A DNA stretch of 64,000 bases, taken from Chryseobacterium lathyri. Lineage in GTDB: Bacteria > Bacteroidota > Bacteroidia > Flavobacteriales > Weeksellaceae. Positions 39,595-41,093 of this stretch are shown here, piece after piece. A model generated the notes under the pieces. It saw only the letters and a list, made by a program, of their open reading frames with translations, was not told the origin of the DNA and searched no databases. The stretch covers positions 310,001 to 374,000 of the forward strand of contig NZ_QNFY01000002.1 in NCBI RefSeq assembly GCF_003290185.1. The letters are read 5' to 3'. Each line of letters opens with the position of its first letter. The first letter of the stretch is position 1. A program made the translations under genes and the position numbers.

Positions 39595-39623
39595 AACCCC
39601 TGGAGAATTTCTTCAGGGGTTTA
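39595..39623. terminator. Terminator overlapping the end of the next gene
   Basis: AACCCCTG (39595-39602) pairs with CAGGGGTT (39614-39621). The right arm is formed by the last codons and stop of the convergent 39613 gene. Confidence 0.75.
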
Positions 39624-39921
39624 ATTTTATATGTGTTTTTTCCAAAATTATCTTATTGTAATACATTAATTCTGGTATAGCTACACAATTTTTATTAATA
39701 ATATGGATGTTATTTTTCGTAAGTAGTGCTTTGTTATTTTCAGACAATGGGAGCGTGCCAAAATGATAATATTTCATTCTCTTTTTGATATAATCATTTA
39801 TAGCAATTTTCTTCATATTTAAAAAGAGGGCATCATTTTTTTGAATGCTATAATATTCAGCCGCTGGAATATTAATACATAAAAAGATTGCAATAATAAT
39901 GTTGAAGCTTTTATTTTTCAT
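39613..39921 (-). CDS. Small exported protein, unknown
   Basis: 102 residues from the ATG at 39921; nine residues from an earlier alternative start (39948) precede the signal peptide MKNKSFNIIIAIFLCINIPA and are unlikely. The mature part is Lys/Asn/Ile-rich with a single Cys and no recognised fold. The gene is strikingly AT-rich. It follows the double-glycine peptide gene on the same strand, but a strong terminator lies between them. An immunity or accessory role is possible but unsupported. Confidence 0.65.
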   Translation of the reverse strand: MKNKSFNIIIAIFLCINIPAAEYYSIQKNDALFLNMKKIAINDYIKKRMKYYHFGTLPLSENNKALLTKNNIHIINKNCVAIPELMYYNKIILEKTHIKLNP

Positions 39922-39936
39922 TGTGTAGAATTGAAA

Positions 39937-39971
39937 CGAAAAAATCAAGGCTTTAAGCCTTGATTTTTTCG
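39937..39971. terminator. Perfect 17-bp palindromic terminator
   Basis: Bases 39937-39953 are the exact complement of 39955-39971 with a single central base. The stem ends in A and T runs, so it works in either direction; it closes the peptide gene at 39979. Confidence 0.88.
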
Positions 39972-39978
39972 TTTTTTA

Positions 39979-40176
39979 TTATAAATGATCAGGGCAATAC
40001 ATAAAATTGTGAGCAAATGTTTCTAGTTTCTGAATCCACAAAGCTGAAGCTCCGGGTCTTCTATCTTCGACATTATACGAGTGGCATGGTGTATGTCTCA
40101 TTCCTCCACCAATATTTTTCATTACATCTTTAGAAAGTTTAATAGCCTTGTTTTCGAAATTTCTTGTTTTTTTCAT
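39979..40176 (-). CDS. Double-glycine leader peptide, bacteriocin/RiPP-precursor-like
   Basis: 65 residues. The N-terminus fits the LSxxELxxIxGG leader used by peptidase-containing ABC exporters: L14-S15 ... M19 ... I22-G23-G24-G25, cut expected after Gly25. The predicted 40-residue core (26-65) has exactly two cysteines, Cys31 and Cys61, four histidines and an Arg/Pro-rich middle (VEDRRPGAS). Many Chryseobacterium genomes carry such 'bacteriocin-like' leader peptides. No modification enzyme or exporter is close by in the window. The core could form one disulfide loop. ATG start preceded by an AT-rich leader without Shine-Dalgarno. Confidence 0.72.
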   Translation of the reverse strand: MKKTRNFENKAIKLSKDVMKNIGGGMRHTPCHSYNVEDRRPGASALWIQKLETFAHNFMYCPDHL

Positions 40177-40235: not shown

Positions 40236-41093
40236 TTACTTTAAAAGTTGGTTAAAAGTATCTCCCTGTTTGATGTCTCCGGTATTATATCCTTTCATAA
40301 ACCATTCTTTACGCTGGGCGGATGATCCATGGGTAAAGCTTTCCTGATTTACATAGCCTTGGGATCTTTTTTGAATGTTATCATCACCAACAGCTTGGGC
40401 TGCATCTATGGCAGATTGTATATCGCCCGGTTCAAGAATACCTTTTGTATCATTTGTTCTTTTTGCCCAAACACCAGCATAAAAATCTGCCTGAAGTTCG
40501 GTGGCAACAGAAACTCTGTTCATTTCTGCCTCAGAATATCTTCCGCTTCTTCTCAGTTGGTCTACCTTTTGTGTGGTTCCAAGAAGAGTCTGCACGTGAT
40601 GTCCTACTTCATGAGCTAAAACATAAGCAACAGTAAATTCAGTTACTTTGGCTCCAAATCTTTGTTGAAGCTCATTAAAAAAGCTCATATCCATATAGAT
40701 TTTCTGGTCTGCAGGGCAATAAAACGGCCCCATGGCAGATTGAGCTGTTCCGCATCCGGATTGTGTGGTTTCTTCAAAAAGAACAATCCCCGGCTTTGTA
40801 TATGTCATTCCATTTTCTTTAAAGATCTGGTCCCAGGTAACGATGTTCCATTTACCCATCATATCAACCATTTCTCCAATTTTGTTTTCTTGGGCAGTAA
40901 GTTCCCGTTGTTGTTCGTTTCCGGAAGATTGTACACTGCCGGAGTTCAAAATCCCTGATGGATCACCTCCCAAAAAGAAAATAATCGCAGCTACAATTAA
41001 AGTTCCAAGTCCTCCACCTACAATCATACCTCCGCTGCCCCCAGAGCCACGGCGGTCGTCTACGTTCCCGCCTCTATCGTCTGTCCATTTCAT
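40236..41093 (-). CDS. Neutral zinc metallopeptidase, YpfJ/KPN_02809 family
   Basis: 285 residues. Gly-rich N-terminus, one membrane segment (about 22-42), then the conserved family block with zincin motif HEVGHH (161-166) and TELQADFYAGVWA downstream giving the third ligand. The family includes human-linked YpfJ homologues of unknown substrate. The active site should face the periplasm. Divergent from the lipoprotein gene at 41170. Confidence 0.92.
   Translation of the reverse strand: MKWTDDRGGNVDDRRGSGGSGGMIVGGGLGTLIVAAIIFFLGGDPSGILNSGSVQSSGNEQQRELTAQENKIGEMVDMMGKWNIVTWDQIFKENGMTYTKPGIVLFEETTQSGCGTAQSAMGPFYCPADQKIYMDMSFFNELQQRFGAKVTEFTVAYVLAHEVGHHVQTLLGTTQKVDQLRRSGRYSEAEMNRVSVATELQADFYAGVWAKRTNDTKGILEPGDIQSAIDAAQAVGDDNIQKRSQGYVNQESFTHGSSAQRKEWFMKGYNTGDIKQGDTFNQLLK

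Follow-up and report, generated by a model that had tools for sequence, protein, structure and literature searches.

Gene, Precursor, and Orthologues

The locus studied here raises the question of whether a short reading frame lying just behind the metallopeptidase gene ypfJ is a gene and, if it is, why its family carries the likeness of the start of that metallopeptidase behind an export-type leader. The window (the whole stretch of 64,000 nucleotides that was analysed) contains this frame at 39979..40176 on the minus strand. It encodes a peptide of 65 aa, MKKTRNFENKAIKLSKDVMKNIGGGMRHTPCHSYNVEDRRPGASALWIQKLETFAHNFMYCPDHL, with an ATG start and a stop codon at 39979-39981; the initial annotation had given the same coordinates and start codon without the strand, and both were confirmed. 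The leader (residues 1-25; 40102..40176, minus strand) is GGG-terminated, with the run at residues 23-25. The pattern LSxxELxxIxGG, previously assigned to residues 14-25, was recovered as a pattern in LSKDVMKNIGGG, but not with its exact E and L, in place of which V and M were found. The core after G25 (residues 26-65; 39982..40101, minus strand) comprises 40 residues with exactly two cysteines, as had been described. These are C31 and C61 (core positions 6 and 36), and both align in register with the cysteines of two phage-borne homologues; a Cys6-Cys36 disulfide could close the mature core into a loop. The core contains 4 acidic and 4 basic residues, histidines not counted. A low-confidence structure prediction of the peptide (pLDDT of 63.8) placed helices at residues 16-20 and 46-60.

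The gene located 59 bp upstream encodes YpfJ, a membrane protease of the neutral zinc metallopeptidase type with 285 aa (40236..41093, minus strand); it matched PF04228 (Zn_peptidase, E 1.8e-95) and scored 354.6 bits with NF050010, for which the cut-off is 250. Given the 59-bp gap and the shared strand, the peptide gene probably forms the end of a unit with ypfJ. Directly after the peptide stop codon there is a palindrome of 20 pairs with a loop of 3 (39933..39975, minus strand). It had been reported as a perfect palindromic terminator; the palindrome is present, but its perfection is not, as 19 pairs are Watson-Crick and one is G-T. The terminator scanner called it terminator-like for the plus strand alone; in the direction of the peptide gene, the inner G+C-rich stem is followed by a T-run that still falls within the outer stem. 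The palindrome may also serve ypfJ, which is on the same strand across the 59-bp gap.

C. culicis and Chryseobacterium sp. CH21 carry, in the corresponding position, orthologues that share 89% identity with the window peptide, and the copies of all three are intact. Comparison of the window with C. culicis by NG86 gave dN/dS values of 0.049/1.49 over the full peptide and 0.021/2.26 over the core, with dS saturated. Being far below 1, they indicate strong purifying selection on the core. In the compared C. lathyri genome the copy has decayed, with the leader gone, a stop codon replacing the first cysteine, and no palindrome beside the remnant; the C. elymi copy has a disrupted leader and a frameshift. 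The site is empty in three further genomes (G146, G154, and G048), where a 102-aa protein gene follows ypfJ after 45 bp and the peptide is missing. The initial annotation had held that absence from close relatives with intact neighbours would speak against the gene. Such absence was observed in part (two decayed copies and three empty sites), yet purifying selection acts on the copies that remain intact in three species. The decayed and empty sites therefore mark the peptide gene as accessory, and purifying selection on three intact orthologues suits an accessory peptide.

The decay in two sister species and the lack of any match in NCBIfam and Pfam might raise the suspicion that the frame is a pseudogene or an ORF that arose by chance, its leader being equally fortuitous. 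This explanation is exceedingly improbable, since the frame is intact and under strong purifying selection in three species and has homologues in 12 genomes and one phage contig; the dN/dS values and the orthologues rule out a chance ORF. The window ORF is a real double-glycine-leader gene.

Leader Class and Exporters

The window peptide matched no NCBIfam or Pfam family at E<=10, in a scan in which the HMMER filters drop most weak matches. NF047798 (leader_Chryseo, "bacteriocin-like protein") describes the same double-glycine leader type; this model covers an 18-residue leader and is silent on the core. A search of the own genome with it at E<=1 did not pick up the window leader, which is longer, and returned 48 other matches, 29 of them above the cut-off (two of the 29 only with in-frame neighbours). 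The expectation that many genes of the same genome share such leaders was thus borne out. Among relatives that share the core type of the window peptide, three (L012, L014, and L015) exceeded the NF047798 cut-off, with 32-35 against 23.5 bits. The window leader itself is, as far as its sequence goes, atypical, and its spaced hydrophobic pattern before the double glycine was judged by eye.

Five loci of the genome gave a Peptidase_C39 match, one of them with an internal stop and one above the cut-off only with its neighbours. The two exporters scanned (L125 and L127) have the full set of C39, ABC_membrane, and ABC_tran domains, and an HlyD-type gene and GG peptides adjoin L125. No C39 exporter was present within the window, and the nearest on the same contig is ~104 kb away, in agreement with the earlier proposal that the peptide would use an exporter encoded elsewhere. 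Export of the window peptide by such a C39 exporter appears plausible on these sequence grounds. A C39 exporter-like ORF was also noted beside a radical SAM gene (PF04055) and a 74-aa GG-motif ORF (L126, G000:C2:242000-249000), which is a possible RiPP cluster of the own genome. Graspetides of the chryseoviridin type are known from Chryseobacterium (PMC8939145).

Among the known peptide models, NF038163 (bactofencin A, a cationic bacteriocin) gave no match to the window peptide and a weak one to the C. culicis orthologue (16.5 bits, E 0.0078, over the leader and the first core residues), below its cut-off of 35. The relatives' scores against RiPP models were likewise under the cut-offs (TIGR04497, 19 against 32 bits; TIGR04149, at most 14.8 against 25 bits). 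The closest described analogues are the bacteroidetocins (class IIf; PMC6671954), which resemble the window peptide in the GG leader and in mature size (~42 against 40 residues). They have a double-glycine peptidase ABC exporter in Bacteroidota and no obvious immunity gene, which is a further likeness. They are described there with four cysteines, and with a thiol oxidoreductase and a transporter in one region, whereas the window peptide has two cysteines; neither a transporter nor a thiol oxidoreductase was recognised among its scanned neighbours. The bacteroidetocins also differ in that the core of the window peptide family begins like a host protease tail.

Two further groups of leader-bearing genes were observed. 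In G151, four same-strand small peptide genes with such leaders, the YpfJ-tail type included, lie together (L087:4563-6080). A second leader-bearing family with the core QxWxAxTxCGxxATTTQ...YC behind GG or AG occurs in six Chryseobacterium genomes (L094 and L096-L100). A common scaffold with these peptides was rejected, because only L094 itself scored accordingly (2/3000 shuffles as high) and the other five did not.

Similarity of the Core to the YpfJ N-Terminus

The initial annotation had missed that the N-terminal half of the family core resembles the YpfJ tail and that relatives are phage-borne. Right after the GG, the start of the family's core resembles the tail motif M[KR]W..DR..NVEDRR of YpfJ. 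In the window, the corresponding parts are residues 26-42 of the peptide, MRHTPCHSYNVEDRRPG (40051..40101, minus strand), and the first 17 codons of ypfJ, MKWTDDRGGNVDDRRGS (41043..41093, minus strand). In a profile-profile comparison, the peptide profile A4 aligned with the YpfJ tail with a probability of 97.6 and an E-value of 2.7e-12, core residue 1 corresponding to Met1 of YpfJ; against the whole of YpfJ, only residues 1-16 aligned (E 2.7e-7). The profile A1, built from eight peptides only, was searched in 173 Chryseobacterium genomes with at most 37 candidates scored per genome. Its positions ~26-41 matched the start of a frame of 281-325 aa in at least 97 genomes. All six such frames compared with PF04228 coordinates (G035, G089, G102, G103, G113, and G144) had the same start, and phmmer identified the frames of 14 of 14 such loci, drawn from the genus and family searches, as YpfJ (E 1e-135 or better). 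When the mimic cores were scored with a YpfJ-tail model, 10 of 11 stood above all 2000 self-shuffles and that of G151 above all but one; the score of L094, the sole related non-mimic tested, was equalled by 929 of 2000 shuffles. The best single case is G035, whose peptide, MKWTDDRCGNVIDRRRG, and own YpfJ, MKWTDDRSGNVEDRRGL, are encoded 494 bp apart.

The tail itself is, judging from the sequences, ancient. YpfJ of E. coli begins with MRWQGRRESDNVEDRR, and a cloning primer for the Klebsiella protein (KPN_02809, PF04228) encodes MRWQGRR (PMC3269727). It is this N-terminal tail that the family's first ~16 core residues match; the window peptide differs from YpfJ in having a leader, two cysteines, and another C-terminal half, and no catalytic (HExxH) domain. 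PF04228 was found in 172 of 173 Chryseobacterium genomes and in four of 14 control genomes, all four of other phyla. Since PF04228 is widespread and the peptides were found in one genus only, the peptides would have taken the piece from YpfJ. The structure of YpfJ was predicted with a pLDDT of 41.8, too low for the model to be of use. An insertion mutation of Yersinia ypfJ is reported to have left psaA expression unaffected (PMC8407435). When the ypfJ genes of L003 and L090 were compared with that of the window, two diverged YpfJ types (IGEMVDMM and IREFV.M forms) were seen at one syntenic position in different species, which suggests replacement.

Taken alone, the window peptide appears weakly YpfJ-like, and the case for tail similarity rests on the family. 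The window core scored 11.5 bits with the YpfJ-tail model and none of 2000 shuffles was as high, but the model found only YpfJ, and not the window peptide, in the own genome at E<=10. In pairwise comparison, the score of the window core with its own YpfJ (31) was reached by two of 81 unrelated N-termini, while those of G035, G114, and G111 with their own YpfJ were reached by none of the 81. The window peptide is 89% identical to its orthologues, 55% to the phage copy L101, and 34-47% to five others. At residues identical to those of YpfJ, the codons were also identical to ypfJ at 2/7 in the window, 3/8 and 2/9 in the orthologues, 2/11 in G114, 8/13 in G035, and 6/7 in G111.

These data bear on the possibility that the peptide is an ordinary class II-type, bacteriocin-like GG peptide and that its similarity to YpfJ is a functionless relic left by an earlier fusion at ypfJ. 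The diverged window codons, the weak likeness of the window core alone, the many GG peptides of the genome, and the position of the gene between ypfJ and the 102-aa protein gene would all be consistent with a relic, as would the incomplete NVxDRR part in G111 and in the decayed G010 copy, both outside the nine-member alignment. The relic nevertheless seems to us rather doubtful, as all nine aligned members, phage and non-adjacent loci included, keep the N, D, R, G, and A of NVxDxRxGA unchanged despite the codon divergence, and the genes take three placements around ypfJ. A general tendency of GG peptides to capture the N-termini of neighbours gave no signal when 26 GG ORFs of the own genome, found by pattern, were compared with ORFs of at least 80 aa in the same ~3-kb loci.

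Distribution and Placement

At E<=1e-10, the family comprised 13 loci, namely 12 of 173 Chryseobacterium genomes and the metagenomic phage contig L101. The genomes are G000 (the window), G023, G122, G062 and G032 (both decayed), G114, G035, G111, G113, G151, G017, and G010. Three of the 13 copies are decayed, namely those of the compared C. lathyri genome, C. elymi, and G010, the last having its leader broken by a stop codon. G130 and weaker matches (E 1.6e-8 and above) were, among those read, leader-sharing peptides without the tail, or YpfJ. In three wider samples, in each of which part of the candidates was scored per genome, the best match outside the genus had an E-value of 7.5e-6 (family sample, 320 genomes, 173 of them of the genus), the four matches at E<=1e-7 were all from this genus (order sample, 395 genomes), and the single match was the own genome (phylum sample, 296 genomes). 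In the plasmid collection, the window peptide had no match and the G114 peptide had one chance match in Streptomyces.

The peptide gene flanks ypfJ at eight of the 13 loci, in three arrangements: co-directional and downstream of ypfJ (G114 and the five loci of the window clade), divergent and upstream (G035), and co-directional and upstream (G111, where the contig ends just past the peptide). At the other five it is not beside ypfJ, which lies on another contig in G151, G017, and G010 and ~0.76 Mb away in G113; within the 20-kb stretch of L101, no ypfJ was found. A pattern scan of ~1.5 kb around 14 other ypfJ loci, with YpfJ confirmed, revealed a GG ORF at none of the 14, so GG peptides as such show no clustering around ypfJ.

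Such placements invite the explanation that the peptide acts within its own cell as a YpfJ regulator or substrate, binding YpfJ or its partner before or after export and tuning the protease, with the GG leader serving for delivery to the periplasm only. The co-directional genes with a 59-bp gap in the window, the adjacency at eight of 13 loci, and the tail similarity point in this direction, and MntS, a small protein from another protein's N-terminal segment, offers a precedent. We consider it unlikely: five of the 13 copies are not beside ypfJ and two are in phage sequence, the G035 copy is divergently oriented, and 172 of the 173 Chryseobacterium genomes have PF04228 against 12 that have the peptide.

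The neighbours of the window peptide include a gene for a 102-aa protein with a signal-like N-terminus (39613..39921, minus strand), a GLPGLI gene, Fe-S assembly genes, a glutathionylspermidine synthase-family gene, and a sulfatase-family gene. The 102-aa protein had no Pfam match and its 94-aa part none in NCBIfam; neither it nor the two small lipoprotein-like ORFs near the window peptide matched a family over the cut-off. It was found in five of 173 genomes at E<=1e-5, not in C. culicis or CH21, and adjoins ypfJ in the three genomes without the peptide. Since it directly follows ypfJ there, its gene probably predates the peptide insertion, and its candidacy as an immunity protein was weakened by the same observation and by the failure to find it in C. 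culicis or CH21. The glutathionylspermidine synthase-family gene (GSP_synth, PF03738, preATP-grasp) lies 1.6 kb from the peptide; homologues were present near ypfJ in seven of 14 peptide-free ypfJ loci of ~3 kb, and the gene therefore has no specific tie to the peptide. The analysis identified no immunity gene for the peptide, and PADLOC found no defence system.

Phage-Borne Copies

The copy in G113 (L091) lies among phage ORFs in a chromosome-sized contig, and the same ORFs recur in the IMG/VR record L102, the phage genes of which include a terminase (phrog_38, 3e-89) and a DNA methyltransferase. Terminase and portal genes are also present on the 45.7-kb metagenomic phage contig from which the L101 locus comes, and the L101 peptide shares the NVEDRRPGAS segment and the ending with the window peptide. 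Five viral scans returned only these two phage contigs, and INPHARED, searched with three peptides as queries, gave no match.

Near both phage copies there is a small cysteine-containing lipoprotein-like ORF (L101:10558-10941; L102:10269-10610), without a PHROG match, which possibly, as a guess, mediates superinfection exclusion. Its family was found in 10 of 173 genomes (L116-L124 included) and in the L101 contig, amid small ORFs whose phage-like nature was judged by eye and not by PHROGs. In the nine genomes besides G113, no GG ORF was flagged in the lipoprotein stretches (~3.3 kb), and none of the chromosomal peptide loci examined has the lipoprotein. The lipoprotein thus occurs elsewhere without the peptide, which weakens its candidacy as a dedicated immunity partner.

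The peptide could, with these copies in mind, be a phage-derived gene of lysogenic conversion, acting in superinfection exclusion or as a lysogeny signal, that has moved to the chromosome beside ypfJ. A prophage copy (L091) and a phage-contig copy (L101), each near a small lipoprotein gene, argue for such an origin. Its probability appears low in view of the lipoprotein's independent occurrence in nine genomes and its lack at the chromosomal copies examined, together with only two phage contigs in the viral scans and none in INPHARED.

Proposed Role of the Peptide

The explanation that we prefer, and regard as about evenly balanced, is an accessory exported peptide of bacteriocin or signal type that exploits mimicry of the YpfJ tail; its export, disulfide, target, and activity are what we infer. 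The peptide would be a mobile accessory member of the double-glycine-leader peptides of Chryseobacterium and its phages. A precursor of 65 residues, probably made from a transcript shared with ypfJ, would be cut after the GG and exported by a C39 peptidase-containing ABC exporter encoded elsewhere. The mature 40-mer would present the copy of the YpfJ N-terminal tail first and the predicted helix last, possibly looped through its two cysteines, and would most likely target related cells in the manner of a bacteriocin or a signal. Retention of its YpfJ-like half may be explained by competition for, or docking onto, the binding partner of the YpfJ tail. The order of tail, hydrophobic stretch, and catalytic domain with conserved cysteines suggests that the YpfJ tail should be cytoplasmic, and how an exported copy would meet its partner is thus the main gap in the mimicry proposal.

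Small peptides that derive from or mimic the N-terminal segments of other proteins are known in MntS and in the plasmid-borne pheromone-mimic peptides of Enterococcus. These are not homologous to the window peptide and follow other routes; here, a protease tail would be the part copied, and relatives are phage-borne. Among open-licence PMC papers, none was found on a peptide copying the YpfJ tail. Peptides with GG leaders are familiar, and the aspect that appears new is a protease-tail-like core that is under selection, recurrent beside ypfJ, and phage-borne. It may tentatively be proposed, though we would not count on it, that chromosomes and phages of Chryseobacterium carry exported peptides forming a class that uses YpfJ-tail mimicry as a weapon or a signal, with the tail as a functional docking motif conserved between phyla and the peptide as a ligand exploiting that motif. 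If the action of the peptide depends on the copied motif, this would represent a new principle for bacteriocin- or signal-type peptides, in which the N-terminus of a host protein is borrowed behind an export leader. On the same condition, the peptide would give a handle on what the tail of YpfJ, a protein that ranges from Chryseobacterium to E. coli, does.
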